DNA of 64,000 nucleotides from Prevotella sp. (GTDB lineage Bacteria > Bacteroidota > Bacteroidia > Bacteroidales > Bacteroidaceae): NCBI GenBank assembly GCA_017623155.1, contig JAGAPR010000003.1, positions 62,001 to 126,000 of the forward strand, written 5' to 3'. The notes beneath the pieces were generated by a model that ran no database searches, had not been told where the DNA came from, and was given only the letters and a program-made list of their open reading frames with translations. Made by a program: the position numbers and the translations under genes. Of the stretch, positions 86 through 54,620 are shown in pieces. Numbering within the stretch: the first letter of the stretch is position 1; every line of letters begins with the position of its first letter.

Positions 86-460
86 AATTGTTAAAAGCAA
101 AAGGTGCGACTTGAAGTCACCGTTTAGAAAAAGCCGAGAATTTAAATTGACATTTCTGTGTCATTATTTCGAGGTTGGGCTGCAATTATTCAAGTCTGAG
201 CGTGATTTTCGGGTGTTTTTGCTCTGCAATAAGGCCGTAATTGCATTGCATTTACGGCCTTATTGCGTTCCAATTACGGCCTAATTGGAATGCAATTACG
301 GCCTAATTGGAAAAGCACGAACTGCAAACTTTACCGCCAAAACGGTCAACATATTGACATACAGTAAATTACGCTAATATCGAAAATACGGCGTTTTTTC
401 GGCATTCGGAAAAATATTTTTGAAATTTTTGAATTACAACGCGTTTTTATGTAAAAACAA
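86..460 (-). repeat. Dispersed four-dyad element, copy 1 (diverged one side)
   Basis: Reverse-orientation copy of an intergenic element that recurs near 10.1, 19.0, 35.1 and 54.4 kb. It contains the near-palindrome GCGACTTGAAGTCAC (106-120) and an exact 85-bp array at 226-310. The array is four 19-bp quasi-palindromes (226-244, 248-266, 270-288, 292-310) separated by ATT, GTT and AAT. The flank beyond 311 only weakly resembles the other copies. No ORF of note lies inside. The rest of the first 600 bases is AT-rich and has no gene that I can see. Confidence 0.85.
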
Positions 461-520
461 GTTCAAACCGTTAAGACATTTTAAACGGTTTTAACAGTCG
501 GGCCGGCCAGTGTGTTTCTT

Positions 521-562
521 TGTGCTTTTTACCCTTTTACCCTTTTTACTTTTTACCTTTAA
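521..562. repeat. T-rich TTTTACCC repeat
   Basis: Short run of TTTTACCCTTTTACC-type units. The same motif recurs as an inverted pair at about 54047-54150 and inside the start of the S41 protease gene at 33298-33341. Function unknown. Confidence 0.6.
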
Positions 563-619
563 ATAATATTAACGAATGTTATTTCGGGGGGGGTAATTTC
601 ATGGTTTCGTTAAAAATAT

Positions 620-627
620 TATCTTTG
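620..627 (+). promoter_or_regulatory. Putative -7 box of the HTH gene
   Basis: TATCTTTG matches the Bacteroidetes -7 consensus TAnnTTTG and lies 49 bp upstream of the ATG at 676. No clear TTTG -33 box is visible; TTTC at 597-600 is the nearest candidate. Confidence 0.5.
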
Positions 628-675
628 CATATAGATTTTTAATAGACATAACGAAATTACCTTAAACAACTTAGT

Positions 676-900
676 ATGCACATAGGAAACAGAATAAAGG
701 AAGTACTCTTTGAACAAGGACACAATGCTTGTTGGTTGGCCGACAGAATACCATGCGAACGCTCTAATGTTTATCATATCTTCAAGCGAAACGATTTGGG
801 AATACAATTGCTCCTCACCATATCCGGAATACTAAACCACGACTTCTTCGCCGAACTGTCGGCCGAGTATAACGCCATGGAAAAGAATAAAAAGGAATAA
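676..900 (+). CDS. Small HTH (XRE-like) DNA-binding protein
   Basis: A 74-residue protein that looks like a single helix-turn-helix domain. The stretch LADRIPCERSNVYHIFKRND (about residues 22-41) resembles the HTH of XRE-type regulators. Bacteroidales encode many stand-alone proteins of this size and form. It lies 52 bp upstream of the outer-membrane receptor gene on the same strand and has a plausible -7 box at 620-627, so the two may be co-transcribed and the protein may regulate the receptor. That link is inference from position. No enzymatic domain is visible. Confidence 0.7.
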   Translation: MHIGNRIKEVLFEQGHNACWLADRIPCERSNVYHIFKRNDLGIQLLLTISGILNHDFFAELSAEYNAMEKNKKE

Positions 901-952
901 TCGGCAGCAGACTATTAAACCTTTTGCCGCCTCCGGCGTCAAACAATACATT

Positions 953-3436
953 ATGAATAGGATAATACTGGTATTTGTTATGATGATCAGTGCCGTTGCG
1001 GCATCGGCCCAAGGCACGGTAAAGGGAAAAATAGTAGACAGGCAGACGAACGAGGTGTTGCCATACGTCAACGTAAGAGTGTCGCAGCGGGGCACGGATA
1101 AGATGGTCAAAGGTGCTATCAGCGACGAGCGCGGACACTTTGCCGTCACCGGACTCGCCAAGGGCGACTATCGCCTCACGGTGTCGTTTGTGGGCTACAA
1201 GAACGCCGTGCGCGACTTCTCCATTACCGACAAGGCGAAAAACATAAACTATGTCGTAATATATATAGGTGAGGACTCGCGCACGCTGAAAGAAGTCAAG
1301 GTCACGGGACAACGCTCGCAGATGAAGCTCGAAGTAGACCGAAAGACTTTCTCCGTAGACCAAGTGCTCGCCGCGGCGGGCGGCTCGGCCAGCGACCTGC
1401 TCGAGAACATCCCGTCGGTAGAGGTGTCCACCGATGGAGAGATATCGTTGCGCGGCAACAGCAGTGTAGAGGTATGGATAAACGGAAAGGCCAGCGGACT
1501 GACGACAGACAACCGCGCCGAGATACTACAGCAGATACCCGCCGAGAGCATAGAGAAAGTGGAGGTGATAGACAACCCCGGCGCCAAATACAGTGCCGAA
1601 GGCTCTGCCGGCATCATCAACATCGTGCTCAAGCGCGACCGCAAGGCCGGATACTACGGCTCGGTGCGCGCCGGAATGAACACCATGGGCGGCGGACAGG
1701 CAGGTGCCAACATCAACTACTCGAGCGGACCGCTCGACGCATTCGCCAACATAGGATTCCGCGCACGGAAAAACAAGGGCGGCTCGCTCAGCGAACAGAC
1801 ATACGCCAACCGCGGAACATACCAGAACTATGAGGCCGAAGACGAACGAAAAGGCAGAAACCTCTTCGCACGCGCAGGACTGACATGGCACTTCACCAAG
1901 AAAGACGAAATATCACTGTCGGGAATGACCATGCTCGGCAAGCGCGACAACCTCTCGCTCACGCCATACCGGTATGGAACAATCGGCGGAGCGGCCGACT
2001 CGCACGTCATGTTCAGACGCTCCGAGGGCGACGGCGACATGAACATGTACAACGTCGAACTGGGATATACACACACGTTCGGCGACAAGCACAAACTCGA
2101 TTTCAACCTGTCGTACAACAAATGGGACAACGACGACAGCAATTACTATCGCGACAGCACAACATTCGCCGATCCGCTCCTGCCAACGACGTACAGCTAT
2201 CAGTATCGCCCGATGCTCATCAACAACCGCTCATGGGAGACAAAGCTCGACTATGAAAACCAAATAGCCGAGAACTTCAAGATAGAGGCGGGATACAACG
2301 GACGCTTCTCGCACGAGAACACACCGCAGGAACTGTGGCGCGACAATGCCAACTGGGACGGTCGCGACATGACCGAAGACCGAGATTACTTCAACCGCTT
2401 CATCTATGACATCGACATCCACGCGCTCTATGCCACCGTGACAACGAAGCTCGGCAGGCTCGGCATCATGGCCGGACTGCGCGGCGAATATTGGCGGGTG
2501 AACACCGAGAGCTACGACTACGACCAAGAGCGCGACCCGGCGCTGCGCGACGAGCCTTTCAAAAAAGACTATTTCCAGCTCTTCCCGAGCCTCTTCCTCA
2601 ACTATCCGCTCACCGAGACCTCGCAACTGCAACTCAACTACACACGGCGACTGCGCCGCCCGTGGGGCGGACAGCTCAACAGTTTCCGCAATACACGCGA
2701 CGCAACGATGGTGTCGTTCGGTAATCCCGAACTTACCCCCGAGTTCACACACGCCTTCTCGCTAAACTATCTGAAGACGTGGACAGACCACACGTTGTCC
2801 GTCGGAACATACTACCGACCCACGACAGACGTCATACAGAGCGTGAGATGGAACAAGGACGGCGTCATGTACTCCACACACCAAAACGTGACTGGAAGCC
2901 GCAGTGCGGGAATGGAGCTGATACTTAAAGACAAACTCTTCCGCATTCTCGACCTCACGACCACCGTCAACGCCTACTACTACAAGCTCGACGGCTTCAG
3001 CTACGAGATAGACGGAGTCACCGTGACTGGCCAGTCGGACGAAAACTTCTCGTGGGACGCACGCATTCTCGCCGGACTCATCCTGCCCTACGACATATCG
3101 TTGCAGGCCACGGGCAACTACCGCTCGCGCAGCGTCATCACTCAGGGATACCGCAAACCCACGGCAAGCCTCGATCTCGGTCTGAGAAAGTCGATGTTCA
3201 ACAAGATGCTGACATTCTCCGTCAACTGGCGCGACGTGTTCGGCACGCGCAAATGGGAGACATTCACCGAGGGCGAAGACTTCACGCGACATCAGAAAAA
3301 CTGGCGCGACCCGCGCGTCAATTTCGTGGTGACGTGGAACTTCGGCAACATGGCCGGTTCGAAAAAGAAGCAAAGGCAGGAAGACTCCGGCGCGGCCGAC
3401 GACGACATGCAGGGCGGCTACGGCGGATATGAGTAG
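953..3436 (+). CDS. TonB-dependent receptor-like outer-membrane beta-barrel protein
   Basis: An 827-residue outer-membrane protein. Residues 1-19 form a signal peptide ending SAVAASA. Residues about 21-105 look like a carboxypeptidase-D regulatory-like domain (GTVKGKIVDRQTNEVLPYVNV). A plug-like region follows at about 125-225, with LLENIPSVEVSTDGEISLRG and VEVIDNPGAKYSAEGSAGIINI. The rest is rich in alternating barrel strands. This layout fits the outer-membrane beta-barrel receptor family common in Bacteroidetes, not the larger SusC type. No SusD partner follows, and the substrate cannot be told. The next gene is convergent, with a shared terminator hairpin between them. Confidence 0.85.
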   Translation: MNRIILVFVMMISAVAASAQGTVKGKIVDRQTNEVLPYVNVRVSQRGTDKMVKGAISDERGHFAVTGLAKGDYRLTVSFVGYKNAVRDFSITDKAKNINYVVIYIGEDSRTLKEVKVTGQRSQMKLEVDRKTFSVDQVLAAAGGSASDLLENIPSVEVSTDGEISLRGNSSVEVWINGKASGLTTDNRAEILQQIPAESIEKVEVIDNPGAKYSAEGSAGIINIVLKRDRKAGYYGSVRAGMNTMGGGQAGANINYSSGPLDAFANIGFRARKNKGGSLSEQTYANRGTYQNYEAEDERKGRNLFARAGLTWHFTKKDEISLSGMTMLGKRDNLSLTPYRYGTIGGAADSHVMFRRSEGDGDMNMYNVELGYTHTFGDKHKLDFNLSYNKWDNDDSNYYRDSTTFADPLLPTTYSYQYRPMLINNRSWETKLDYENQIAENFKIEAGYNGRFSHENTPQELWRDNANWDGRDMTEDRDYFNRFIYDIDIHALYATVTTKLGRLGIMAGLRGEYWRVNTESYDYDQERDPALRDEPFKKDYFQLFPSLFLNYPLTETSQLQLNYTRRLRRPWGGQLNSFRNTRDATMVSFGNPELTPEFTHAFSLNYLKTWTDHTLSVGTYYRPTTDVIQSVRWNKDGVMYSTHQNVTGSRSAGMELILKDKLFRILDLTTTVNAYYYKLDGFSYEIDGVTVTGQSDENFSWDARILAGLILPYDISLQATGNYRSRSVITQGYRKPTASLDLGLRKSMFNKMLTFSVNWRDVFGTRKWETFTEGEDFTRHQKNWRDPRVNFVVTWNFGNMAGSKKKQRQEDSGAADDDMQGGYGGYE

Positions 3437-3455
3437 AATTTGGTATTTGAAAAAT

Positions 3456-3500
3456 GGAATTTGGAATTACGAATTCGTAATTCCAAATTCCTTTTTTTTT
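3456..3500. terminator. Bidirectional terminator hairpin
   Basis: A perfect 36-nt palindrome (3456-3491) followed by nine T on the plus strand, with a T-rich tract on the other side when read on the minus strand. It lies between the convergent receptor gene and glnN, whose stop codon falls just inside the T run, so it can serve both. Confidence 0.8.
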
Positions 3501-5688
3501 ATCTTATAAACAGCAGCTCACGGTATTTCGGCAGCGTCCAGAGGTCGTCTTCGACAATCAGTTCGAGCTTGTCTATCTGATAGCGGATTTCCTCCATCTT
3601 CGGTGCCACGGTGTCGTGGTATGCTATTGCCTTGGCGTGCTCGTCGTCGATGCGGTTTGCCACCTTGCGCGCCTGCACCAGTTCTTCCACTCCGCGTTCT
3701 ATCGTCGCCGTGCGGTCGGCAATCTCTTCAATCAGTTTTATGTTGCGTGCGCTCAGCTTGTCGGCCTTTTCGGTGTCGAAGATGCCGCGCATGTTCTGCA
3801 CGTTCTTTATCAGCTGGCTCTGGTAGTGCGTGGCCACGGGGATGATATGGTTCATCGACAGGTCGCCCATCACGCGCGCCTCGATCTGTATCTTCTTCGT
3901 ATACGTCTCCCATTTCACCTCGTTGCGTGCCTCCAGCTCCTTGCGCGACATGACGTTCAGGCTCTCGAACATGCTGATGCTGTCCTCGTCGAGGTAGCGC
4001 TCGAAAATCACCGGGCAGCTCTTCTCGCAGTCGAGACCGCGGCGCATTGCCTCCTCGACCCACTCGTCGCTGTATCCGTTGCCGTCGAAGCGTACCGGCT
4101 TGCACGTCTTTATGTCTTCGCGGATGACGTCGATGATGGCGCTCGTCTTGTCCTCGCCCTTGGCGATGAGTGCGTCCACGCGCTTCTTGAAGCAGACGAG
4201 AGCCTCCGCCACGGCCGAGTTGAGGGCAATCATGGCCGATGCGCAGTTAGCCTCGGAGCCCACGGCACGGAACTCGAAGCGGTTTCCGGTGAAGGCGAAG
4301 GGCGACGTGCGGTTGCGGTCGGTGTTGTCGATGAACAGTTCGGGAATCTCCGGGATGTCGAGCTTCAGTCCCTGCTTGCCCATCACGGCGAAGAGGTCGT
4401 CCTTGTCCGACTTCTCGATATGGTCGAGCAGTTCGCTCAGCTGGCTGCCGAGGAACGACGATATGATGGCGGGCGGAGCCTCGTTGGCGCCCAGCCGGTG
4501 TGCGTTCGTGGCGCTCATGATGCTCGCCTTGAGCAGTCCGTTGTGGCGGTATACGCCCATGAGCGTCTCCACGATGAACACGGCGAAGCGCAGGTTGTCC
4601 ATCGGCGTCTTGCCGGGTCCGTGGAGCAGCACGCCTGTATCCGTCGAGAGGCTCCAGTTGTTGTGCTTTCCCGACCCGTTGATGCCGGCAAAGGGCTTCT
4701 CGTGGAGCAGCACGCGGAAGCCGTGCTTGCGTGCCACGCGCTTCATCAGCGACATCAGCAGCATGTTATGGTCTACGGCGAGGTTGCACTCCTCGTATAT
4801 CGGGGCCAGCTCAAACTGGTTCGGGGCCACCTCGTTGTGGCGTGTCTTGCAGGGGATGCCCAGTTCGAGAGCCTGTATCTCAAGGTCTTTCATGAACGCC
4901 TGCACGCGGTCGGGGATTGTTCCGAAGTAGTGGTCGTCCATCTGCTGGTTCTTAGCCGAGTCGTGTCCCATGAGCGTGCGGCCCGTGAGCATCAGGTCGG
5001 GGCGTGCCGAGTATAGTCCCTCGTCGACGAGGAAATACTCCTGTTCCCATCCCAAGTTGCTGCGAACATTTTTCACTTCGGGATAGAAGTATCGGCAAAC
5101 GTCGGTCGCCGCCTTGTCCACCGCATGCAGTGCGCGCAGCAGCGGAGCCTTGTAGTCGAGAGCCTCACCGGTGTATGAAATGAAGACTGTGGGTATGCAG
5201 AGCGTGTCGTCCATGATGAAAACGGGCGATGTGGGGTCCCAAGCCGAGTATCCGCGAGCCTCAAACGTGTTTCGTATGCCGCCGCTGGGGAACGAGCTGG
5301 CATCCGGTTCCTGCTGCACGAGCAGTTTTCCGCTGAACTCTTCCACCATTCCGCCTTTGTAGTCGTGCTCTACGAACGAGTCGTGTTTCTCGGCCGTGCC
5401 CTCTGTCAGCGGTTGAAACCAGTGCGTGTAGTGCGTCACACCGTTCTCCGTTGCCCATTGTTTAATACCTGCCGCCACGGCATCGGCCACCGAGCGGTCG
5501 AGGCGCGTGCCGTTGTCTATCGCGTCGGTGAGCTTCTCGTATACATCTTTCGGCAGGTATTTATACATCTTCTCGCGGTTAAAGACGTTCTTGCCGAAAT
5601 ACTCACAAGGCCGCTCAGACGGGCACTTGACATCCAGAGGCTTCTTCTTGAAAGCCTCTCCTACAACCTGAAATCTTAAATTTTCCAT
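3499..5688 (-). CDS. glnN: Glutamine synthetase, type III
   Basis: Makes glutamine from glutamate, ammonia and ATP in the cytosol. At 729 residues it has the length of GSIII enzymes, well above the roughly 450 of GSI. Visible motifs are NEVAPNQFELAPIYEE (285-300), NGSGKHNNWS (337-346, the glutamate-binding region) and a C-terminal stretch typical of GSIII. The start gives MENLRFQVVGEAF, usual for the family. It is downstream of dapF and dapL on the same strand, separated from dapL by 309 bp of repeats without a gene. No TAnnTTTG box is seen just upstream, so read-through from the dapF promoter is possible. Ends at a hairpin shared with the convergent receptor gene. Confidence 0.97.
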   Translation of the reverse strand: MENLRFQVVGEAFKKKPLDVKCPSERPCEYFGKNVFNREKMYKYLPKDVYEKLTDAIDNGTRLDRSVADAVAAGIKQWATENGVTHYTHWFQPLTEGTAEKHDSFVEHDYKGGMVEEFSGKLLVQQEPDASSFPSGGIRNTFEARGYSAWDPTSPVFIMDDTLCIPTVFISYTGEALDYKAPLLRALHAVDKAATDVCRYFYPEVKNVRSNLGWEQEYFLVDEGLYSARPDLMLTGRTLMGHDSAKNQQMDDHYFGTIPDRVQAFMKDLEIQALELGIPCKTRHNEVAPNQFELAPIYEECNLAVDHNMLLMSLMKRVARKHGFRVLLHEKPFAGINGSGKHNNWSLSTDTGVLLHGPGKTPMDNLRFAVFIVETLMGVYRHNGLLKASIMSATNAHRLGANEAPPAIISSFLGSQLSELLDHIEKSDKDDLFAVMGKQGLKLDIPEIPELFIDNTDRNRTSPFAFTGNRFEFRAVGSEANCASAMIALNSAVAEALVCFKKRVDALIAKGEDKTSAIIDVIREDIKTCKPVRFDGNGYSDEWVEEAMRRGLDCEKSCPVIFERYLDEDSISMFESLNVMSRKELEARNEVKWETYTKKIQIEARVMGDLSMNHIIPVATHYQSQLIKNVQNMRGIFDTEKADKLSARNIKLIEEIADRTATIERGVEELVQARKVANRIDDEHAKAIAYHDTVAPKMEEIRYQIDKLELIVEDDLWTLPKYRELLFIR

Positions 5689-5997
5689 TGACTTATAATT
5701 TTATGGGAGCTCCTCCCGGCCTTTCGGGAGTCTCTCCCGACCGCCCCTAAGGGGAGGAGATGTGGGGCTTTTGTTGGGTTCTTATTTGGGGGTTTATTTG
5801 GGGTTTTATGGGAGGAATGGGATTTTATGGGAGAGATGGGAATAATGGGAGAGATGAGAATAATGGGATTGATGCCACATTATATGCTATCGGATTCTTC
5901 ATTCTTCACTCTTCACTCAGTTTCTCCCCTTTGGGGAGATTAAGAGGGGCTTCTTCTCCTCCCCTTTGTGGAGGTCGGGAGGGGCCTCCCTCTTCAC
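5689..5997. repeat. Intergenic repeats between dapL and glnN
   Basis: This 309-bp gap holds no credible gene. GC-rich palindromic units of the CTCCTCCCC/GGGGAGGAG type lie at about 5703-5760 and 5917-5995, in opposite orientation. Between them at about 5810-5880 is a degenerate tandem tract of ATGGGA units. On the minus strand, the coding strand of both neighbours, the tract reads TCCCAT. Related units occur at about 7.25, 22.9, 25.0, 33.2 and 57.6 kb. Confidence 0.75.
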
Positions 5998-7227
5998 TTA
6001 CAGTTGCTTCCTTATCCTTTCCATTGCCTGCTCGCAGTCGCTTCTTTTGCCGAAAGCCGTCAGTCGGATGTAGCCTTCGCCGCTCGGGCCGAAGCCCACT
6101 CCCGGCGTGCACACCACGTGGGCGTTGTAGAGCATCTGCTCGAAGAAGCGCCAGCTGCCCTCTCCGTTCGGCGTCTTCACCCACAGGTAGGGCGCGTTGC
6201 GGCCGCCGTAGACCTCGAGGCCGAGGCCGGTGAGTGTCTCGAGCATTATGCGGGCGTTCGTCATGTAGTAGTCTATCGTGGCCTTTACCTGTTCCTTGCC
6301 CTCCGGGGTGTATGTGGCTTCGGCCGCCCGCTGACTGATATAGCTCGTGCCGTTGAATTTGGTGCTCTGTCGGCGATACCACAGTTTGTGCAGCGATATG
6401 CGCTCGCGGCCGTCTATCGTGCCGGCCGTCAGGTCCTTCGGCACCACCGTATATCCGCATCTGATGCCTGTAAATCCCGCCGTTTTCGAGTAGCTGCGGA
6501 ACTCGATGGCCACTTTCCGCGCACCCTTTATCTCGTAGATTGAGTGCGGAATATCGTCGTCTTGTATGTAAGCCTCGTATGCCGCGTCGTAGAAGATGAG
6601 CGTGTCGTTCTTCAATGCATAGTTCACCCACTTGCGCAGTTCGTCTTTCGATATCACCGTGCCCGTGGGGTTGTTCGGGTAGCACAGGTATATGATGTCT
6701 ACACGGCGGTCGGGGATTTGCGGCACGAAGTTGTTCTCGGCCGTGCACGGCATGTATATCACATTGCTCCACTTGCCGTTCTGCACCGTGCCCGCGCGTC
6801 CGATCATCACGTTAGAGTCGATATATACCGGGTAGATAGGGTCTGTCACTCCGATGCTGTTGTCCCATCTGACGAGTTCCTGAATGTTTCCCGTATCGCT
6901 CTTCGCGCCGTCGTTGATGAAAATCTCGCTCGGGTCGAGTCTCACTCCGCGTGGCAGATAGTCGTGTTTCACAATCGCCTCGCGCAGGAAAGCGTAGCCC
7001 TGTTCCGGTCCGTAGCCCCTGAACGATTTTTCGCAGCCCAGTTCGTCGACAGCCTTGTGCATTGCTTCCGTCACTGCCGGGCACACGGGTCTCGTCACAT
7101 CGCCTATTCCGAGACTGATAAGCTCGGCCTGCGGATGCGACACCTTGAACGCATTTACCTTTTTCGCAATGTCGGAAAACAGGTAATTATCGGGTAATTT
7201 AAGAAAATGTTCGTTTACTAATGCCAT
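5998..7227 (-). CDS. dapL: LL-diaminopimelate aminotransferase
   Basis: PLP-dependent class I/II aminotransferase of 409 residues. It converts tetrahydrodipicolinate directly to LL-diaminopimelate with glutamate as amino donor, bypassing the succinylase route. The start MALVNEHFLKLPDNYLFSDIA and the segment ISLGIGDVTRP are typical of DapL. The PLP lysine lies in EFRSYSKTAGFTGIRCGY and an aminotransferase NNPTGT motif is present. dapF, the next enzyme of the pathway, lies 208 bp upstream on the same strand, which strongly supports DapL over other aminotransferases. Product is used for lysine and peptidoglycan. Confidence 0.97.
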   Translation of the reverse strand: MALVNEHFLKLPDNYLFSDIAKKVNAFKVSHPQAELISLGIGDVTRPVCPAVTEAMHKAVDELGCEKSFRGYGPEQGYAFLREAIVKHDYLPRGVRLDPSEIFINDGAKSDTGNIQELVRWDNSIGVTDPIYPVYIDSNVMIGRAGTVQNGKWSNVIYMPCTAENNFVPQIPDRRVDIIYLCYPNNPTGTVISKDELRKWVNYALKNDTLIFYDAAYEAYIQDDDIPHSIYEIKGARKVAIEFRSYSKTAGFTGIRCGYTVVPKDLTAGTIDGRERISLHKLWYRRQSTKFNGTSYISQRAAEATYTPEGKEQVKATIDYYMTNARIMLETLTGLGLEVYGGRNAPYLWVKTPNGEGSWRFFEQMLYNAHVVCTPGVGFGPSGEGYIRLTAFGKRSDCEQAMERIRKQL

Positions 7228-7435
7228 AATGTATTGTTTTTTAGAGCCCCTCCCTGAAAGCCCCCTCCCGGCCTCCCCAAAGGGGAGGAGAGATGCGGAT
7301 GCTTTCTGGGAGTGATGAGAGTTATGGGATTTTAATGAGAGTTATGGGGAGTGATGACGCATTATCTACTATTGGATTGTTCATTCTTCCCATTCTTCTT
7401 CCCTGACTCTTCATTTATAATTTTTAATTTATAAT
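7228..7435. repeat. Repeats between dapF and dapL
   Basis: No gene. A GC-rich palindromic unit lies at about 7243-7296, and a tract of GGGAGTGATGAGAGTTATGG-like repeats at about 7305-7360 reads as TCCCAT on the coding (minus) strand. Confidence 0.65.
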
Positions 7436-8302
7436 TTATTGAAATGTCCTCGCCATTTCAATACTTCCTTCGAAAACAAATTCCGCCGGGCCCGTGAGAT
7501 ACACGTGATTGTCGGCTTCGCGCCATTCTATCGACAGCCGTCCGCCGTCCATGATGATGTCTGTCTGTCGTCCGGCGCGTCCCGTCACGGCAGCGGCCAC
7601 GGCCGTGGCGCAAGCTCCCGTGCCGCATGCGAGTGTTATTCCGCTGCCCCGTTCCCATACGCGGGTGCGGATGTTCCCGTCAGGCAGCACCTCGGCAAAT
7701 TCGATGTTGCATCGCTCCGGGAATATGGGATGGCGTTCGAGTGCCGCCCCACTCCGGGCGATGTCACAACTACTGATATTATCCGTGAATACGACGAAAT
7801 GCGGGTTGCCCATCGACACGAACGTTCCGGTGTATACCTTCCCGTCGGCTTCGATGGCGGCCTCGTGCAGGCTGCCCGTTTCGTTTCTTACCTTAGTCTT
7901 GTCGCTGAGTGCTGGTTCCAGCATGTCCACCGTCACGCCGGCCACCGTGTTGTCGTCTCTTGTGCGTAGCAGCAGAGTTTTCACACCCGAGAGCGTTTGC
8001 AGCCGTATCTCCTTGGCGGTGGTCAGTCCTTTCTCGTAGAGATACTTCCCGATGCAGCGCGACGCGTTGCCGCACATCAGGGCTTCCGACCCGTCGGCGT
8101 TGAAAATCCTCATCGTGAAGTCGGCCGTGCGCCCGTCGCCTCTGCCTATCAGCACAAGGCCGTCGCTTCCTATGCCCGTGTGCGGCGCGCTCCATGCCTT
8201 TGCCGCCGCCGAGGGGTCGTCGATGTGGTATATCGACGTGTCAACGTATATATAATCGTTGCCCGCTCCGTGCATCTTTGTGAATTTGACAGTCGTTGTC
8301 AT
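7436..8302 (-). CDS. dapF: Diaminopimelate epimerase
   Basis: Interconverts LL- and meso-diaminopimelate by a two-cysteine, cofactor-free mechanism in the cytosol. The 288-residue protein starts [21 protein letters not shown], the family signature. Both catalytic cysteines are present, in [10 protein letters not shown] and in [10 protein letters not shown]. Likely first gene of a dapF-dapL(-glnN) unit. A TAnnTTTG box (8352-8359, minus strand) lies 49 bp upstream of the ATG. Together with dapL and the distant dapB it outlines the aminotransferase route to lysine and cell wall. Confidence 0.97.
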
Positions 8303-8351
8303 GCCGTAAATCTTTTGATGTGAAACAATGTCTTATTATTCGTTTATGGCG

Positions 8352-8359
8352 CAAAGTTA
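8352..8359 (-). promoter_or_regulatory. Putative -7 box of dapF
   Basis: CAAAGTTA on the plus strand is TAACTTTG on the minus strand and fits TAnnTTTG, 49 bp from the dapF start. The only strong box seen for the dapF-dapL-glnN run. Confidence 0.55.
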
Positions 8360-8623: not shown

Positions 8624-8667
8624 CGATATACGGACATATTGTCCCACACACTCATGACCAAAAGAAT

Positions 8668-9936: not shown

Positions 9937-9941
9937 CTTTC

Positions 9942-10386
9942 TTAATATATCTTAACGCTGTTAACATCTCTGATATTATATTTACAAAATAAGGCCTCAT
10001 AACTGCGTTCTTTTCAAAAAATAATTTCCTCGGCCGAAAAAACGCAGTTTTAGAGCATTTCACGCAAAGTATTGTCTGTCAACCATTTACCTACAAAACC
10101 TACCTTCCCTACTCTCCCTACCACCCCTCCTCTTTTCCAATTAGGCCGTAATTGCATTCCAATTAGGCCGTAATTGGAACGCAATAAGGCCGTAAATGCA
10201 ATGCAATTACGGCCTTATTGCAAGGCAAAAACACCCCAAAAGCACCATCAAACCCGAATAATTGCATCCCAAGCATCAAATAATGATACGGAAATGTCAA
10301 TTAAAATTTTCGGCTTTTTCTATTTGGTGACTTCAAGTCACACTTTTTGCGTTTAACAAATACCTCTCGGTTTTCACATTCATTAA
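9942..10386 (+). repeat. Dispersed four-dyad element, copy 2
   Basis: Full-length forward copy between two convergent genes. Its left flank (9942-10136) contains a conserved AACGCA/TGCGTT pair around an A/T-rich loop. The array at 10137-10221 is four 19-bp dyads (10137, 10159, 10181, 10203) with 3-bp spacers ATT, AAC and AAT. The right flank holds the perfect palindrome GTGACTTCAAGTCAC (10327-10341). The 470-bp intergenic region has no credible gene. Confidence 0.9.
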
Positions 10387-10406
10387 GGAATTACACCCTA
10401 CCGCCA

Positions 10407-18779: not shown

Positions 18780-19217
18780 TTGCTTAAAATAACCAAAACC
18801 TTGTTAATTTTTTCAGGACTCACATGCTCTGAGAATGCGTTTTTTCAAAAATATTTTCCCGAGGCCGCAAAAAACGCAATTTTAGAGCGTTTTGCGTAAA
18901 ATATTGTCTGTCAACATCTTACCTACAAAATCCACCATCCCTACGCCCCCTACACACCCTCTTCATTTCCAATTAGGCCGTAATTGCATTCCAATTAGGC
19001 CGTAATTGGAACGCAATAAGGCCGTAAATGCAATGCAATTACGGCCTTATTGCAGAGCAAAAACACCCGAAAATCACGCTCGGCCCCGAATAATTGCAGT
19101 TCAACCTCAAAATAATGACACAAAAATGTCAATTTAAATTCTCGGCTTTTTCTAAACGGTGACTTCAAGTCGCACTTTTTATTTTAACAATCGCCCCTCG
19201 ATTTTCACATTTATTTA
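18780..19217 (+). repeat. Dispersed four-dyad element, copy 3
   Basis: Forward copy. The array at 18969-19053 is four 19-bp dyads (18969, 18991, 19013, 19035) with spacers ATT, AAC and AAT. The right-flank near-palindrome GTGACTTCAAGTCGC is at 19159-19173. The rest of the 18.70-19.39 kb gap holds a short unit at about 19218-19300 that matches, in reverse complement, the sequence at about 34836-34885. No gene is seen in the gap. Confidence 0.9.
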
Positions 19218-19393
19218 AAAACAAAGAGCGCAAAGATTTTTTTGAATTTAGAATTTAATCTGTTTTGGCACACCATCTTTACAATTCGCAATTCAATAAT
19301 TTGCTGCTGCAAATATTTTTTATTAATATTGCAGCGGATATGCGTTTCCGGCGCAAAAAAACATGATATAAAACAAAAAAACAAGATACATAT

Positions 19394-25971: not shown

Positions 25972-26056
25972 GTTACGCCGGCCGCGTAACATTGTTACTA
26001 CGCCCAAGTAACGACGTGACAACAGCCAAGTCGCAACGTTACTGCGGCCGCGTAAC
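25972..26056. repeat. 85-bp array of four GTTAC-N9-GTAAC dyads
   Basis: Four 19-bp quasi-palindromes at 25972-25990, 25994-26012, 26016-26034 and 26038-26056, separated by exactly 3 bp (ATT, GAC, AAC). Units 1, 2 and 4 have perfect GTTAC/GTAAC arms; unit 3 has GTGAC/GTCGC. Total length and period (85 bp, 22 bp) equal those of the arrays in the dispersed element, although the sequence differs. Lies between the argB terminator and the sigma-factor gene, 120 bp upstream of the latter. Confidence 0.85.
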
Positions 26057-34895: not shown

Positions 34896-35340
34896 TTAAT
34901 ATCTCTTAAAAATGTTAATATTTTGATATTATATTTACAAAATAAGGCCTCATAATTGCGTTCTTTTCAAAAAATAATTTCCACGGCGAAAAAAACGCAA
35001 TTTCAGAGCGTTTCACATAAAACATTGTCTGTCAGCCCCTTACCTGCAAAATCTGCCATCCATACCTCCCCTACAAACCCTTTCGTTTTCCAATTAGGCC
35101 GTAATTGCATTCCAATTAGGCCGTAACTGGAACGCAATAAGGCCGTAAATGCAATGCAATTACGGCCTTATTGCAACGCAAAATCACTCGAAAATCATGT
35201 CCAACCCCGAATAATTGCATCTCAACCCCAAAATAATGACACGAAAATGTCAATTTAAATTCTCGGCTTTTTCTAAACGGTGACTTCAAGTCGCACCTTT
35301 TGCTTTTAACAATCGACTTGCGATTTTTACATTTATTAAA
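34896..35340 (+). repeat. Dispersed four-dyad element, copy 4
   Basis: Full-length forward copy between convergent genes. The array at 35090-35174 has dyads at 35090, 35112, 35134 and 35156 and spacers ATT, AAC and AAT. Unit 2 carries one T-to-C change (CCAATTAGGCCGTAACTGG). The right-flank near-palindrome GTGACTTCAAGTCGC is at 35280-35294. No gene in the gap. Confidence 0.9.
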
Positions 35341-35353
35341 GAAAAGAGGAATC

Positions 35354-43788: not shown

Positions 43789-43804
43789 CGACTTTAAATC
43801 AAGG

Positions 43805-48613: not shown

Positions 48614-48642
48614 GCTGTTTTAATTTGGTTAGTTTGACGGTG

Positions 48643-48650
48643 CAAAATTA
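48643..48650 (-). promoter_or_regulatory. -7 box of the esterase gene
   Basis: TAATTTTG on the minus strand, 29 bp before the start codon, with GAAA (TTTC on the minus strand) near 48664-48667 as a weak upstream box. Confidence 0.5.
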
Positions 48651-48737
48651 TTGCCACAGCATGAGAAAAAGGGGTAAAGTCTTGTCATTCCGAGGGGAAA
48701 ATCGTGTCAAAACATGATTTCCACGCTCTTTTGACGG

Positions 48738-51101
48738 TTAGCAATCACTGTTTCTAAGTTCCCTCGGTGTCTTGTCCGTTGATGCCTTTACACATTTCGC
48801 GAAATACTTCGGGTCGGAAAAACCGCAGGCGTATGCTACATCCGCCACAGGCATATCAGTCTCTTTCAGCATCTTCACGGCGCGTTTCATCCTTGCCTCT
48901 TTCAAGAAATCGGCAGGTGTCACTCCGAGCAACTGGCGCATCTTGCGGTTCAGTCCCGAGCGGCTTACGGCAGCGGCGGCGGCCATATCGTTGATGTTTA
49001 TGTCGCTGTCGGAGATGTTCTTTTCCGTGAAGTCGGCTATCCTTTTCATGAAAGCCTCGTCTTCGGCCGACAGACGAGGTGCTATGACGATTGGGGTCGA
49101 ATGTTTTTCAACCGCCGGCTTGCTACCGTTATTGGCGTTTTCTTTCTTGATGTCGAGCAGCAACAGATAGGCTTCAAGTGTCTCCTTGCGGCGTTTCTCC
49201 AAGTTTCGGACGTATATTATGGCGTATGTCAGCAGCACTATAAGTCCTGCTATGACAAGTGCCACGAACAGCCGCCCGTACCATGCCTCAAAGAATGTTG
49301 GTTCCACTACTATTGTCACTGAGCGCACATTGTCCGTCCACTGTCCGAGAGCGTTTGTTGAGCGTATCTTCAACGTGTGCGTACCTACCGCAATATCACG
49401 GAAGTCGATGCTGTTCACGGCCGTGGGATGGCTCCATACACTGTCTTCATCAAACTTCGTGGCATATCGTATATATTTGTTTCCCGCATAATCGAGGGCC
49501 GAGAAACTGAGAGTAAAATCACGTTGTGAGGGACTGATGACGATAGTGTCCCTGTAATCGACGGTATAATCGGTTGTAGTGCCGGCCATGCGAAGCTCCG
49601 TCAGCACTATGCGCGGCTTGTAGTCTACTGCATAGAGATCTTTTATTTTCACTGTCAGCACGCCCGTTTGAGTAGAGATGAGCATCCGTCCGTCGGGCAA
49701 CAGCAACGGTTCGGCATCGGAGAACTGTATGTTTTCGCCCCAAAACGCCCTCCCGTAGTTTTCTATCCGTGAGGTTTTCATGTCCAGCAGCGACAACATG
49801 TTGTTGCATTGCACGAGCAACACATCGTCAGTAAGTACGGCACATGCCATTGTAACGTCCGCTCCCAATCCGTTCTCCAATCCGTAATGTATGAAAGAAA
49901 ACTTGTCTGCATGAAGATTTTTGGTGAGCAGAAGATTTATTCCGCCACTCTCCGTCGTTACAAACACCCGTCCTCTGCCATCCGTTATGGCGTTCATCGT
50001 GGCGTTGTCGGAGAGGCTTTCAGCCCTATCTGCCTCCCTTACGTGCATACGCCAGCGTATCTTGTCCGATTGTTTATATATATTGTCCGCGACAAGAAGC
50101 CCGGTCGTGGTTGTCGCTATCAGTGTTCCGTCGTCAAGGATGAGCAGTCTTCTCACGCGAAGCCCCTTTGTCGCTTCTATCGCCTTTACGGCATATCGCC
50201 CGCCTTTGCGGCTTACGACACTTATTCCACCTACATGCGTGGCTACCCATATTCTGCCCTTGCGGTCTTTTTTCAAGTCGTAGACATCTTCGGAGTTGAG
50301 TCTGTCTATGCGCTCGATATCGCCTCCGTGCAGCCGGAACAGACCGGCCGGTTTGCTTCCAAGCCATATCGTGCCCTCATCATCCTCGCATATACAATAT
50401 ACAGGATGGAACAGTGTACTGTCGTCGTCATGTAACCGGCCGTCTTTTCCCATGTATCCCAAGAGCGACAGTCTCTCATCAAGCACAGTCAACCGCCCGT
50501 CCTTTGTTCCAATCCACAGTCTACCCGCACGGTCGCGATACATACCCCGTGTGACAGACGCGGATACATTCTCCACCGTGTTCCACTTCTTCATGCGCGG
50601 CACACTGCGAAAGAAGCCGCCGGGAGTTATTTTCCAGTGTATGCCGCGGCTGTCTTCAAAGTCGCCTATCCGTGTACCGTGTTCCTTAAAAACCTTGCGC
50701 GCTTTATCGCTCAGTTCGCCTTCGATACGGGCAAACCGCGATGTCCTCACATTGAAAAGGAACACATCATCGTCAACGAGACAATAGATATTGCCCACAG
50801 CCGTCGCCGGTGTTATGTCGTAGTCGGGCACAATGTTGCGGAAACGACAGCTGCCCATATCGTTTCCGTCTCCCGGCGTTGCCTTGAAAACGACAAAACC
50901 GTATCCGTCGAAACGATAGAGCCCGTTCCACGACGACAGCCACAACAGTCCCTTGCGGTCTTGAAGTATCTGTGTTACATGCTGACCGGATATGTCTGCC
51001 ACATCATCGATATTGTCCGTCACATAGTCTTCTTCCGCCATTCCGTATGCCGCGGAAGGAAACAACACCATCAATATGATCAACAGCAGTGGCATCGGCA
51101 T
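48738..51101 (-). CDS. Membrane sensor with beta-propeller, Y_Y_Y domain and AraC-type HTH, no kinase
   Basis: A 787-residue one-polypeptide regulator. Signal/anchor at the N-terminus, then a periplasmic two-component-regulator propeller with many WIGT/WLGS-type blades (LLWLSSWNGLYRFDGYGF, RLWIGTKDGRLT, TIWLGSKPAGLF), a Y_Y_Y domain (~500-600), one transmembrane helix (~609-630, LFVALVIAGLIVLLTYAIIYV) and a cytosolic AraC-type HTH (~685-785, MAAAAAVSRSGLNRKMRQLLGVTPADFLKEAR). Hybrid two-component systems of Bacteroidetes carry histidine kinase and receiver domains between the helix and the HTH; here only ~50 residues separate them. It probably controls the adjacent esterase gene and perhaps susCD. 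Starts 10 bp after ruvB. Confidence 0.9.
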   Translation of the reverse strand: MPMPLLLIILMVLFPSAAYGMAEEDYVTDNIDDVADISGQHVTQILQDRKGLLWLSSWNGLYRFDGYGFVVFKATPGDGNDMGSCRFRNIVPDYDITPATAVGNIYCLVDDDVFLFNVRTSRFARIEGELSDKARKVFKEHGTRIGDFEDSRGIHWKITPGGFFRSVPRMKKWNTVENVSASVTRGMYRDRAGRLWIGTKDGRLTVLDERLSLLGYMGKDGRLHDDDSTLFHPVYCICEDDEGTIWLGSKPAGLFRLHGGDIERIDRLNSEDVYDLKKDRKGRIWVATHVGGISVVSRKGGRYAVKAIEATKGLRVRRLLILDDGTLIATTTTGLLVADNIYKQSDKIRWRMHVREADRAESLSDNATMNAITDGRGRVFVTTESGGINLLLTKNLHADKFSFIHYGLENGLGADVTMACAVLTDDVLLVQCNNMLSLLDMKTSRIENYGRAFWGENIQFSDAEPLLLPDGRMLISTQTGVLTVKIKDLYAVDYKPRIVLTELRMAGTTTDYTVDYRDTIVISPSQRDFTLSFSALDYAGNKYIRYATKFDEDSVWSHPTAVNSIDFRDIAVGTHTLKIRSTNALGQWTDNVRSVTIVVEPTFFEAWYGRLFVALVIAGLIVLLTYAIIYVRNLEKRRKETLEAYLLLLDIKKENANNGSKPAVEKHSTPIVIAPRLSAEDEAFMKRIADFTEKNISDSDININDMAAAAAVSRSGLNRKMRQLLGVTPADFLKEARMKRAVKMLKETDMPVADVAYACGFSDPKYFAKCVKASTDKTPRELRNSDC

Positions 51102-51111
51102 ACTTTCATTT

Positions 51112-52140
51112 TCAGAACAGTTCCTGCTGCATGATGTTTCCTGTGTACGGGTTGCGGCCGAAATGGCGGTATGCCAGTTCGGTGACCATACGTCCGCGGG
51201 GGGTTCGCTTGATGAAGCCCTCCATGATGAGATACGGTTCGTATACTTCCTCCACCGTTCCCGAGTCTTCTCCTATCGCCGTGGCGATGGTGCTGATGCC
51301 CACCGGTCCGCCTTTGAACTTGTCTATTATCGTGAGCAGTATCTTGTTGTCTATCTGGTCGAGTCCGTATCTGTCGATGTTCAGTGCCGAAAGGCTCATC
51401 GTTGTTATCCCGATATCTATCTTTCCCGTACCTTTCACCTGCGCGAAGTCACGCACACGGCGCAGCAACGCGTTTGCTATACGCGGTGTTCCGCGGCTGC
51501 ATCGCGCTATCTCCATCGCCGCGTCGTCGTATATCGGTACTCTGAGTATGTCTGCCGAGCGTTTTATTATCTTCGTCAGCGTCTCCGGGTCGTAGTATTC
51601 GAGGTGCATGTTTATGCCGAAACGTGCGCGCAGCGGTGCGGTGAGCAGTCCGCCACGTGTTGTCGCTCCGATGAGCGTAAAGGGATTAAGGTCTATCTGT
51701 ATCGAGCGTGCCGACGGTCCTTTGTCTATCATTATGTCTATCCGATAGTCTTCCATGGCCGAGTACAGATACTCCTCCACCACGGGCGACAGCCGGTGTA
51801 TCTCGTCGATGAAGAGCACATCATTGCGCTCGAGCGATGTCAGTATGCCCGCGAGGTCGCCCGGCTTGTCGAGCACGGGTCCGCTTGTTATCTTGAATCC
51901 CACTCCGAGCTCGTTTGCTATGATGTTGCTCAGTGTGGTCTTTCCCAGTCCGGGAGGTCCGTGCAGCAGCGTGTGGTCGAGCGGTTCTCCCCTGTATTTT
52001 GCAGCCTCGACAAACACTTCAAGGTTTTCCACCACCTTTTTCTGTCCGCTGAAATCGCCAAATCGCAGCGGTCTCAGCGCGTTTTCAAAGTCTTTCTCTG
52101 CCGCGGCTCTTTCCTGTCTTATGTCAAAATCTTCGTTCAT
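51112..52140 (-). CDS. ruvB: Holliday junction branch-migration helicase RuvB
   Basis: AAA+ motor of the RuvABC resolvasome, 342 residues. Walker [12 protein letters not shown], Walker [10 protein letters not shown], sensor region [19 protein letters not shown], and a C-terminal winged helix ([21 protein letters not shown]) are all present. The regulator gene starts 10 bp downstream, possibly read through. A TATCTTTG box lies at 52192-52199 on the minus strand. Confidence 0.98.
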
Positions 52141-52191
52141 CAGGTTTTTCGGTTTTACTCTACCCTTATTATATATGTCTGCAAAGATAGT

Positions 52192-52199
52192 GTTTTTTT
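52192..52199 (-). promoter_or_regulatory. -7 box of ruvB
   Basis: CAAAGATA on the plus strand, TATCTTTG on the minus strand; 52 bp from the ruvB start. Confidence 0.55.
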
Positions 52200-52282
52200 G
52201 GCAAGCGGCAAAGAAAAAGCGGCACGTAAGAAAGCCGTCGCCTTCCCACGTGCCGCCATGTCAGTGTTTTTCAAGTATTCCG

Positions 52283-52378
52283 TCAGGCCATCATACCTGC
52301 CGCATGAGTTGCGCCGAGTGCGCTCAGCAGTGCCGTTGCCACTGCCACCACGATTTTAAGAATTTTCTTCCAGTCCAT
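52283..52378 (-). CDS. Smalltalk protein (31 residues)
   Basis: Very small ORF, MDWKKILKIVVAVATALLSA plus 11 residues (LGATHAAGMMA). It matches the Bacteroidetes 'smalltalk' family in length, in the MDWKK(I/L)L start and in its position just downstream of an HU-family gene. One hydrophobic helix (about residues 6-22) suggests membrane insertion. Function unknown. It lies 22 bp after the HU-family gene on the same strand and is almost surely co-transcribed with it. Confidence 0.85.
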   Translation of the reverse strand: MDWKKILKIVVAVATALLSALGATHAAGMMA

Positions 52379-52400
52379 AGTCTGTCCTCCTTTCATCAGC

Positions 52401-52853
52401 TCATGCTCCCGGCTCCACGGTCTCGGCATCCTCTTTTATCACGTTGTTTATCGGAAGCTCGCTCACCTTGCATCCATCTATGAACGCCTTTACTCGCCGT
52501 CCGGCTTTCGATATTTTCATCTCCGGCTGGAATATCACGTGTATGTCTTTCAGGTTCTGGCTCACGTTGAAGTCTTTTGCCGTGTCGCTCGGCTTGGTGC
52601 TGATAGCGAGTTTGAACGCTCCGAAGCGGTCGAGCTTCACGCGTTTGGAGTCTTGCAGTTCCTTTTTCATCGTCACCACCAGCTCACTGATAACGGCGAG
52701 AATGTCGGCTCGCTTCACGGTACAGTTTGCCTCGATGGTGTCTGCCAGTTGGTCGGTGGTCACGGTGTCGAGCGCGACGGCGCGTCCATACCACTTGTTG
52801 AAGTTTGCTGCCTTGGAGTTCTTGTTCTGGTAAAGTCTGTAATGTACTGCCAT
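52401..52853 (-). CDS. HU-family DNA-binding protein, extended form
   Basis: A 150-residue member of the HU-like family seen across Bacteroidetes. N-terminal MAVHYRLYQNKNSKAANFNKWYGRAVALDTV, then the HU-like fold (IEANCTVKRADILAVISELVVTMKKELQDSKRVKLDRFGAFKLAIS), and a C-terminal extension with acidic end. It differs from the classical 90-residue HU at 18.4 kb. It is followed by the smalltalk gene and preceded by an M15 peptidase and an unknown gene on the same strand. A TACCTTTG box (52927-52934, minus) lies 73 bp upstream. Confidence 0.88.
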   Translation of the reverse strand: MAVHYRLYQNKNSKAANFNKWYGRAVALDTVTTDQLADTIEANCTVKRADILAVISELVVTMKKELQDSKRVKLDRFGAFKLAISTKPSDTAKDFNVSQNLKDIHVIFQPEMKISKAGRRVKAFIDGCKVSELPINNVIKEDAETVEPGA

Positions 52854-52926
52854 AGTTTTTTCCTTTCTTAAATTTTTAAATGGTTAATGAAAAATTGTTT
52901 GTCGCTTGTCTTTCCGGAAGACATTG

Positions 52927-52934
52927 CAAAGGTA
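52927..52934 (-). promoter_or_regulatory. -7 box of the HU/smalltalk pair
   Basis: CAAAGGTA on the plus strand, TACCTTTG on the minus strand. Confidence 0.5.
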
Positions 52935-53031
52935 GTGAATTTTGAAGCCTTTGTCAAGCGTTATCCCGATACACATCCTGCTACACATTGCGATACCGTT
53001 GTCTTTTCGTTGCCGCCGGATGGTGTTTTCG

Positions 53032-53454
53032 TCAGCATTCCATTGTGGCGGCCATGCGTCTGTTTGCCCTCCGCGCGGTATATGATATGTGAAGCCATCG
53101 GCATCCGTTGCTCATGGCGTGCTCGAACAGCATCTGATCGAAATCGAGATTGCGCCTGACGAAGTCAAATATCTTCATTCCCGTCTCCATGTCGGATATG
53201 TGTATATCTGCGGCCTCGCCTCTCATGTGTTGCGAGGCGGGTGCTCCTCCCACGGCTTTGTTCAGCTCGGGCGATCGAAATCCGCTCGATATTCTCGTCA
53301 CTCCAAATCGCCGGCGTATCGGTTCGAGCACGTTTTCGCATAGCATCCTCATTCGTTCCACGTCGCCGTCGGTGGGGTTGTTCTCTATCTTCCGGCTTAT
53401 CGCCACGCCCGAGCGTGTCATTTCCTCGAGCGAAAAATGTGTTGTCAGTTTCAT
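53032..53454 (-). CDS. M15-family peptidase (endolysin-like)
   Basis: A 140-residue zinc D,D-peptidase without a signal peptide: MKLTTHFSLEEMTRSGVA, then RISSGFRSPELNKAVGGAPASQHMRGEAADI with zinc His and Asp, and WLHISY with the final His. The Peptidase_M15_3-type fold and lack of a leader resemble phage endolysins. It occupies the place where an N-acetylmuramoyl-L-alanine amidase usually accompanies HU and smalltalk. Starts 12 bp after the preceding gene on the same strand. Confidence 0.85.
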   Translation of the reverse strand: MKLTTHFSLEEMTRSGVAISRKIENNPTDGDVERMRMLCENVLEPIRRRFGVTRISSGFRSPELNKAVGGAPASQHMRGEAADIHISDMETGMKIFDFVRRNLDFDQMLFEHAMSNGCRWLHISYTARRANRRMAATMEC

Positions 53455-53466
53455 GGTTGTTTGTTT

Positions 53467-53889
53467 TTATTGTTTTGTTATGTTTCTCATCAGCGGCTGC
53501 TCTCCCTTTTCGTGCATCATCCGCATGTATCTCTCTATCAGTGCGCCCCTGCGCACTCCTTTTCGTCTTGCCGCCTGATAGGCCGCTCCCCTCGGGTTGT
53601 GCGGTTTTCTCACGTGCAGCGTGTGGCAAACCTCGGTCACCATGCCCGCAAACGTGCATACGTTTCCCTCTGTGTCGCATATCGAGCCCTGCATGTAGGC
53701 TATGTGTGCCGCCTCCATGAGGTCGGCCACAGAGCCTTTCCATTGCGCGCCCTCGTCGGGGTCGAGCTTCAACAGTGCGGCAAACTCTTCGGTGATACGC
53801 TCGCGCGCCTCTTTTTCCCTCTTTGCCTCGACGGCCATTCGCGTTTCGCGGTCGGCCGGCATGTGTGTTTTGTTGTTGTAAAACATCAT
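53467..53889 (-). CDS. Unrecognised 140-residue protein
   Basis: Not recognised. The sequence is charged and probably soluble, with a helical N-terminal third (ADRETRMAVEAKREKEARERITEEFAALLKL) and a basic end (NPRGAAYQAARRKGVRRGALIERYMRMMHEKGEQPL). No membrane segment or known catalytic motif. It is the first gene of the four-gene HU/smalltalk cassette and has a TACCTTTG box (53966-53973, minus). Position and base composition support a real gene. Confidence 0.7.
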   Translation of the reverse strand: MMFYNNKTHMPADRETRMAVEAKREKEARERITEEFAALLKLDPDEGAQWKGSVADLMEAAHIAYMQGSICDTEGNVCTFAGMVTEVCHTLHVRKPHNPRGAAYQAARRKGVRRGALIERYMRMMHEKGEQPLMRNITKQ

Positions 53890-53965
53890 TGATTTTAAGT
53901 TATTAAAGTTAATTATTTAATTATGTGCGCTCCGCCTTGCGGCCGCGAGTGCTTTATATCGGTTG

Positions 53966-53973
53966 CAAAGGTA
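53966..53973 (-). promoter_or_regulatory. -7 box of the M15 cassette
   Basis: CAAAGGTA on the plus strand, TACCTTTG on the minus strand; 77 bp from the start at 53889. Confidence 0.5.
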
Positions 53974-54046
53974 ATGCACGAATGTGCACATATAGTTCAA
54001 TTATTATATTTTTTCGTTAAACAATTTAAAAACGCAAAGACCGATT

Positions 54047-54150
54047 AAAGGTAAAAAGGCGATTTAAAGGTAAAAAAGTAAAAAGGTAAAAAACCGTGCG
54101 GCGTGTTTCTAAGCGCAGCCTTTTTTACCTTTTTACTTTTTTACCTTTAA
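54047..54150. repeat. Inverted pair of TTTTACC repeats
   Basis: AAAGGTAAAAAAGTAAAAAGG units on one side and CCTTTTTACTTTTTTACCTTT on the other form a long imperfect hairpin. Related to the repeat at 521-562 and to the coding copy at 33298-33341. Confidence 0.65.
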
Positions 54151-54167
54151 AACCACCTTTTTTCTTT

Positions 54168-54620
54168 AAATATTGTAAAAATCGCGAGGTAATTGTTAAA
54201 AGCAAAAAGTGCGACTTGAAGTCACCGTTTAGAAAAAGCCGAGAATTTAAATTAACATTTTTGTGTCATTATTTCGGGGTTGAGATACAATTATTCGGGG
54301 TTAAGCATGATTTTCGGGTGTTTTTGCTCTGCAATTAGGCCGTAATTGCATTGCATTTACGGCCTTATTGAGTTCCAATTACGGCCTAATTGGAATGCAA
54401 TTACGGCCTAATTGGAAAACGAGAGGAGTTGTAGGAGAAGTAGAGGAGGCTGATTTTGTAAGTAAGAGGCTGACAGACAATATTTTACGCAAAATGCTCT
54501 AAAAATGCGTTTTTTTCGCCGAGGAAATTATTTTTTGAAAAGAACGCAATTATGAGGCCTTGTTTTGTAAATATAATATCAGAATTGTTAATGCGTTTAA
54601 TATGTATTAACATTTTGATT
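54168..54620 (-). repeat. Dispersed four-dyad element, copy 5
   Basis: Full-length reverse copy between divergent genes. The array at 54331-54415 has dyads at 54331, 54353, 54375 and 54397 with spacers ATT, GTT and AAT; unit 2 ends TTGA where the others end TTGC. The palindrome GCGACTTGAAGTCAC is at 54211-54225. No gene in the remaining gap. Confidence 0.9.

Follow-up and report, generated by a model that had tools for sequence, protein, structure and literature searches.

What kind of element keeps the geometry of its repeats constant while their letters change? The question is raised by a stretch of 64,000 nucleotides from Prevotella sp., here called the window (C102:62001-126000 of a metagenome-assembled genome (MAG) of 2.74 Mb in 104 contigs, 84% complete), in which intergenic arrays of palindromes recur in five dispersed copies. 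The initial annotation had described five arrays of 85 bp, each made of four 19-bp quasi-palindromes (7+5+7) separated by 3-bp spacers. All five are present at the coordinates given below, and this build holds for each of them. The same geometry is recovered by a scan that ignores base sequence and looks for four palindromes with unit lengths of 15-21 and all periods up to 27. Indeed, only period 22 had at least five positions in the window reaching the maximum of 10 Markov shuffles, and this signal was seen with unit lengths of 15, 17, 19 and 21. Units 1-3 carry GGCCG and unit 4 its reverse; arrays of this type in the source genome are referred to as family A. Together with a flank module and a tail, the array forms a non-coding element of about 445 bp, whose parts in the window are the following:

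226..310, minus strand: array of copy 1, four 19-bp dyads at a 22-bp period, 85 bp (sequence reading)
307..449, minus strand: flank module of copy 1, divergent type, 51.5 bits; the match extends 4 bp into the array
46..225, minus strand: tail flank of copy 1 (end approximate)
9986..10135, plus strand: flank module of copy 2, 82 bits
10137..10221, plus strand: array of copy 2, 85 bp
10222..10401, plus strand: tail flank of copy 2 (end approximate)
18825..18965, plus strand: flank module of copy 3, 81.5 bits
18969..19053, plus strand: array of copy 3, 85 bp
19054..19233, plus strand: tail flank of copy 3 (end approximate)
34939..35088, plus strand: flank module of copy 4, 87.1 bits
35090..35174, plus strand: array of copy 4, 85 bp, with a peptidase S41 gene and ybeY (convergent) on either side
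35175..35345, plus strand: tail flank of copy 4 (end approximate)
54417..54566, minus strand: flank module of copy 5, 88.1 bits
54331..54415, minus strand: array of copy 5, 85 bp
54151..54330, minus strand: tail flank of copy 5 (end approximate)

Two earlier statements about this build needed correction. Two units of opposite orientation can indeed pair into a hairpin, but the 15 bp given for it was too short, as 18 of the 19 positions of unit 3 can pair with those of unit 4. Likewise, the flanks had been called conserved; this is true of four copies in the window (81.5-88.1 bits), whereas the module of the copy at 226 is clearly divergent (51.5 bits).

One window protein has its closest named relatives among Prevotella records, the best of them, at 87% identity, being from Prevotella sp. 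MGM1, which suggests that the source is a Prevotella in the GTDB sense. At the site of copy 4, between the genes of the S41 protease (ctpA) and ybeY, MGM1 carries a homologous module beside a different array. The element is dispersed in MGM1 too (115 candidates, of which the best 40 were scored), and the MGM1 consensus consists of five 19-mers at 22 bp with other arms and a centre that reads GACGC or GCGTC. A model of the left module, derived from sequence only (13 source and 12 MGM1 copies), was the only query run against 149 genomes, among them the source (E 0.001, strict filters; some congeners are incomplete MAGs). It matched in 46 of them, with counts per genome that rest on the best 21 scored candidates and are lower bounds in several genomes. 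Carriers of the same genus number 37 out of 90 genomes, including the source, and 18 of these have at least four matches; with these filters, and with some MAGs incomplete, no module was detected in 53 of the 90. Nine of the 59 genomes from other genera gave one match each, and multiple copies are found only within the genus.

Of the 17 other genomes with multiple matches, 11 supplied 80 elements. These relatives were collected by their flank module only and are free of selection for spacing, whereas the loci of the source genome, collected by similarity and by a GGCC pattern, are partly selected for intact spacing. By autocorrelation, lag 22 came top in 8 of 12 sets (11 relatives and the source) and second to lag 44 in three; the sets of genomes G034, G035 and G014 rest on 2, 1 and 1 elements, respectively. 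In every one of 10 sets except G059, the value at lag 22 was higher than in any of 200 within-sequence shuffles. When a periodic profile was fitted, 22 was the best of the periods 19-25 in seven of eight sets, either by a wide difference (22 against the best other period: 46.4/12.1 in G016, 58.1/26.0 in G012, 49.2/21.4 in G077) or more narrowly (26.2/19.8 in G149, which is MGM1, and 20.3/13.8 in G075). The units are palindromic in all nine sets evaluated (G059 not included), the observed value being reached by only 0-5 of 200 column permutations. Their sequences are species-specific: the source unit reads CCAATTAGGCCGTAATTG, that of G016 TAATTTGANTCAAATTA and that of G012 AAAGCNNNGCTTT, which the unit of G046 resembles. 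An unchanging geometry with changing bases had been claimed for the window alone; it extends across species, and far from varying freely, the step is constant in nearly all species sets. The 11-bp distance between the two best dyad centres was rejected as independent evidence, since any 22-periodic array with one dyad has a second one 11 bp off.

A pattern for the module core stood out clearly from its control in just two genomes, G016 and G059; its counts in the others are mostly small, and it does not enter the calls of presence or absence. In G059 (loci L213-L222), the core occurs in high copy (64 pattern matches, control 0) and the adjacent hairpins are off the 22-bp step. Two genomes found via the GGCC pattern, and thus selected for a 22-bp GGCC step, G001 and G069, display by eye 19-bp palindromes with 3-bp spacers and arms of their own; two of the 11 loci of the former matched the module model weakly (E 0.0027 and 0.14), as against none of the nine loci of the latter. 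In G069, a genome with 68 pattern matches, loci L294-L302 combine CCAATATGGGCCATATTAC-like units, arranged in arrays, with other repeats; GACTC replaces GGCCC in some of these units. Two features of the flanks may be added. A tract of 9-bp period, CCTACNNNN, lies between module and array (about 10090-10125 in the window) and occupies the same place in many source and MGM1 copies. An inverted repeat is visible by eye in individual sequences of the left module (for example window 18825-18905, and L133-L155), with arms that vary between subfamilies and species.

Within the source genome, the array is also much more uniform than the sequences around it. Among 38 main-class copies with full flanks (the five-unit copy at C42:124929 being excluded), the arrays are 97.7% identical with no gap, while the left 150 bp are 71.3% and the right 180 bp 79.5% identical. 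Eight copies form a class with another tail, in which the array is 87.8%, the left flank 69.4% and the right flank 69.7% identical. Single linkage places all 54 left flanks in one cluster and splits the 53 tails into groups of 45 and 8 copies. When both classes are taken together (46 copies), 232 pairs share identical arrays with a flank identity of only 0.59-0.90. The GGCCG centre is the most constrained part: in the main class, substitutions affect 1 of 760 centre positions, 28 of 2128 arm positions and 10 of 342 spacer positions, and in the second class 1 of 160, 48 of 448 and 8 of 72 (centre versus arms, p 0.0024 and 5e-6, respectively). The uniformity of the arrays is upheld by selection, conversion or both.

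The high copy number that had been predicted is borne out. BLAST with one element against the source genome returned 133 candidates, of which the best 40 were scored, with 82-90% identity besides the query, and a pattern of three GGCC at a 22-bp step has at least 81 forward matches, against none for the reversed-pattern control. In the window and the fetched stretches of this genome (515 kb fetched, about a fifth of the genome), 76 arrays with a score of at least 24 were read: 60 belong to family A and 16 to family B or related dyad arrays (C64:77468, a family B array, is left out of the 60). At least one further module match is known (C102:206828). Family A arrays have four units in 59 of 60 cases, and five in C42:124929, where the step is still 22 bp; six of the 60 are truncated at contig ends, where one side shows fewer than 22 bases. 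Eleven contigs (C3, C8, C21, C23, C26, C39, C62, C77, C85, C90 and C95) start or stop within about 55 bases of an array, which suggests that the elements break the short-read assembly of this MAG; the true copy number is therefore probably higher than 60.

The elements are dispersed and intergenic in their own genome, as had been proposed, and their positions can be compared with those in MGM1. By hand reading, in some cases by one flanking gene only, 15 of 30 MGM1 loci share an intergenic region with a source element, giving 16 pairs, of which 8 have the same orientation and 8 are flipped; two further MGM1 loci sit across a shared gene from a source element. The modules of the 10 measurable pairs are barely more alike than those of random pairs (mean z 0.73). 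This pattern is less in keeping with simple inheritance than with elements that inserted repeatedly where intergenic regions are permissive, or that were turned over as a whole. As to location on a larger scale, only 3 of 35 module-core matches of the G016 chromosome fall in its third between 1.14 and 2.25 Mb; GC skew in 20 windows did not locate the origin. In the window, a gene for an HU-type DNA-binding protein (PF00216, 18284-18640) adjoins the element at 18969, probably by coincidence.

How can a constant step be reconciled with replaced letters? The explanation that we favour, with chances that we put as evenly balanced, is that these are genus-wide, non-autonomous elements resembling miniature inverted-repeat transposable elements (MITEs), whose array would be a phased docking platform for several protein dimers, with letters co-evolving with a predicted protein. 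The elements do have several traits of MITEs, being short, non-coding, dispersed and intergenic. Symmetric sites spaced by two helical turns, which the initial annotation had pointed out, are what phased dimers would lead one to expect. Several symmetric dimers may bind in phase and cooperatively, neighbours touching at the 22-bp step, and contact between adjacent dimers would fix the geometry. The specificity of the protein would shift between lineages, and the letters of the array would follow as a set. The element would spread without a gene of its own, by transposition or similar copying, and the bound protein, which may be a transposase or else a partner with an organising or silencing effect on the element, would keep the array uniform. 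A further-reaching proposal, which we advance tentatively and consider rather unlikely, is that geometry is passed on and sequence is not. The arrays would then form, with a protein, a pair that co-evolves rapidly, in the manner of a centromere or of a hotspot and its reader. Kept in place in dozens of copies per genome, they would be rewritten jointly in every Prevotella lineage according to a single structural rule: 7+5+7+3 bp, with one polymerising dimer per 22 bp. If the arrays are a binding platform, the genus would supply a natural collection in which protein-DNA specificity has been re-engineered within a constant architecture, and in which one could test directly how dozens of sites come to change in concert.

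Various observations weigh against this MITE-like docking platform. By eye, no convincing terminal inverted repeat is found in the consensus or the listed flanks, both sides of which end near TTAA. Neither a target duplication nor an empty site was seen, no close insertion-free strain being available for comparison. In the 515 kb of fetched source DNA, none of 67 module matches or 56 tail matches lies more than 400 bp from an array, and no autonomous partner was found; nor was a protein binding the array identified. The identity of nearest-neighbour flanks does not exceed 91% (46 copies), and no recent jump is seen, although recent movement could be hidden, since near-identical young copies would drop out of a short-read MAG. 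One of the pairs shared with MGM1, C57 with L143, looks inherited (mutual best). Transposition alone leaves the uniformity of the arrays unexplained if old copies are dead. Furthermore, conservation of the arms exceeds that of the spacers only slightly in the main class (p 0.033) and not at all clearly in the other (p 0.84), so that whole-array copying or conversion may account for much of this uniformity. The period itself has weak points: lag 22 hardly exceeds the best other lag in G029 (0.331/0.326) and G046 (0.381/0.350), and G059 has the module without a 22-bp period, its profile fit preferring 21.

Four other explanations have to be weighed. The arrays could be nucleoprotein or regulatory sites maintained by the host and working in place, for nucleoid anchoring, insulation or upstream control, with an old dispersal and copies under selection. 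This is a credible competitor, which we nevertheless consider improbable. It would lead one to expect what is seen in copies that look old, namely an array far better conserved than its flanks and constrained above all at its centre. It also accounts for gene context: the source elements with both neighbours called (n=44, with genes from our own caller; a further 16 at contig or stretch edges stand outside this number) lie in 22 divergent, 20 tandem and 2 convergent regions, as compared with 29, 91 and 26 for element-free gaps of at least 60 bp (n=146; Fisher p 0.0002 for the divergent excess), an excess that may in part be a size effect, divergent gaps being longer anyway. However, the context is inconstant, since elements of G016 are found in 10 convergent, 7 tandem and 3 divergent regions (n=20, gene caller trained on G016 DNA). 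Moreover, there is no preferred orientation among the 44, a 5' end being faced by the module side in 33 and by the tail side in 31. Together with sites that differ between species, the lack of a detected module in 53 of 90 congeners, strict filters and incomplete MAGs notwithstanding, argues against an essential role in nucleoid anchoring. Convergent positions matter as well for the possibility that the palindromes are RNA hairpins of a structured RNA, terminator or attenuator: their rarity in the source genome (2 of 44) is one reason to hold this unlikely. Both strands do fold better than shuffles (z -4.2/-5.3 for one source copy and -3.5/-4.1 for one MGM1 copy), and units 3 and 4 form a long hairpin, but palindromic DNA folds on either strand regardless. 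G.T exceeds A.C on one strand of the MGM1 arrays, a lean confounded by the G/T-rich composition of that strand, and no common lean is found at the best dyad (G.T/A.C 0.11/0.09 in G016, 0.06/0.05 in G012, 0.11/0.13 in G029, 0.05/0.10 in G046, 0.11/0.05 in G077, 0.08/0.17 in G149 and 0.02/0.04 in the source). RNAalifold returned no consensus pairs for the module alignment, and Rfam matched only a tRNA in the whole window and nothing in four loci of other species. The absence of a common G.T lean, of an Rfam family and of frequent convergent positions disfavours a role as RNA or terminator.

The arrays could also go back to iterons of the plasmid or phage type, as relics or as decoys that would titrate a replication initiator from the chromosome. 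Iterons of theta plasmids are similar in period and repeat length, and species-specific sequences would suit an arms race. Yet the units are palindromic rather than directional, and the window copy, representing the element of its own species only, had no match in 50,697 phage or 72,556 plasmid records. An exact match of the source unit in viral contigs (one) lies inside a phage gene and was taken as chance. None of the 10 window proteins adjoining arrays that were scanned is named a replication initiator, and three have no Pfam match. The affiliation with plasmid iterons suggested by the initial annotation is not supported, with no plasmid or phage relative at the sensitivity used and dozens of dispersed copies in the MAG, and we regard the whole idea as very improbable. 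The same few chances, or slightly fewer, are left to a minisatellite that sits passively in a dead MITE and owes its period to ancestry. MITEs with internal tandem repeats do exist, as BrickBuilt of Porphyromonas gingivalis illustrates (PMC4596501). However, passive arrays should vary in unit number or by indels, whereas 59 of 60 arrays here have four units and the 38 main-class arrays are gapless; furthermore, step and palindromy persist between species while the sequence changes.

A second family of arrays occurs in the source genome. Its representative in the window is the following:

25972..26056, minus strand: family B array, four GTTAC-N9-GTAAC-like units at 22 bp, no flank module

Family B is also present on C28, C64, C82, C83, C101 and other contigs (L064-L088), where it is often bounded by TGAAAT/ATTTCA, and its N9 often contains GGCCG, offset as in family A. 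No module match was found in the 25 family B loci searched.

How do these elements compare with known systems? Among the open-access literature matches listed, none describes such an element in Prevotella, and no match to a known MITE derived from an insertion sequence (IS) was found, no comparison with an IS library having been made. Porphyromonas gingivalis belongs to the same order as Prevotella. Its BrickBuilt MITE is the closest published system found: it is intergenic and dispersed, with 19 copies in ATCC 33277, and has 23-nt direct repeats in 1 to 22.8 copies, with indels of 0-6%, no spacers and terminal inverted repeats like those of the IS5 family, within one species (PMC4596501). It shares with the elements described here a leader, an internal tandem array of similar unit length and a tail, besides its intergenic, dispersed location (PMC4596501). 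The elements of Prevotella differ in having palindromic 22-bp units, nearly always four in the source genome, with no indel in the 38 main-class arrays. They also differ in that no terminal repeats are seen, and in being genus-wide with species-specific arrays.

Other systems are more distant. Repetitive extragenic palindromes (REP) and bacterial interspersed mosaic elements (BIME), associated with REP-associated tyrosine transposases (RAYT), are likewise dispersed intergenic palindromes in high copy, but lack the fixed multi-unit array and the long conserved module. The Y1 transposase domain (Y1_Tnp, PF01797) is present in the carriers G014, G016, G029, G034, G038 and G059 (G075 and G077 lay outside this search) and had no match in the source MAG (84% complete), in G012 and G046 (both 99% complete) or in G035. 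Its absence from the source MAG and from two near-complete carriers makes a RAYT unlikely as a general mobiliser. Iterons of theta plasmids such as P1 and R6K have units of about 19-22 bp at a step of about 22 bp, but they are directional and belong to an origin, whereas the units here are palindromic, their dispersed copies number in the dozens, and the source copy has no plasmid match. Tn7-type ends contain repeated 22-bp transposase sites, several of them at a helical step; here, however, the array is internal, and neither transposase nor cargo is seen in it. Repeats of the BOX and ERIC type are modular, dispersed and non-coding, like the present elements; to our knowledge, none of them has an array that is replaced from species to species at a constant step. 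Dispersed bacterial repeats are usually recognised by their sequence, whereas the conserved trait here is a spacing rule, and searches with the array sequence would miss such elements between species. Globally, dispersed non-coding elements are already well known in bacteria; what is unusual in those of Prevotella is a conserved step combined with a replaced sequence.

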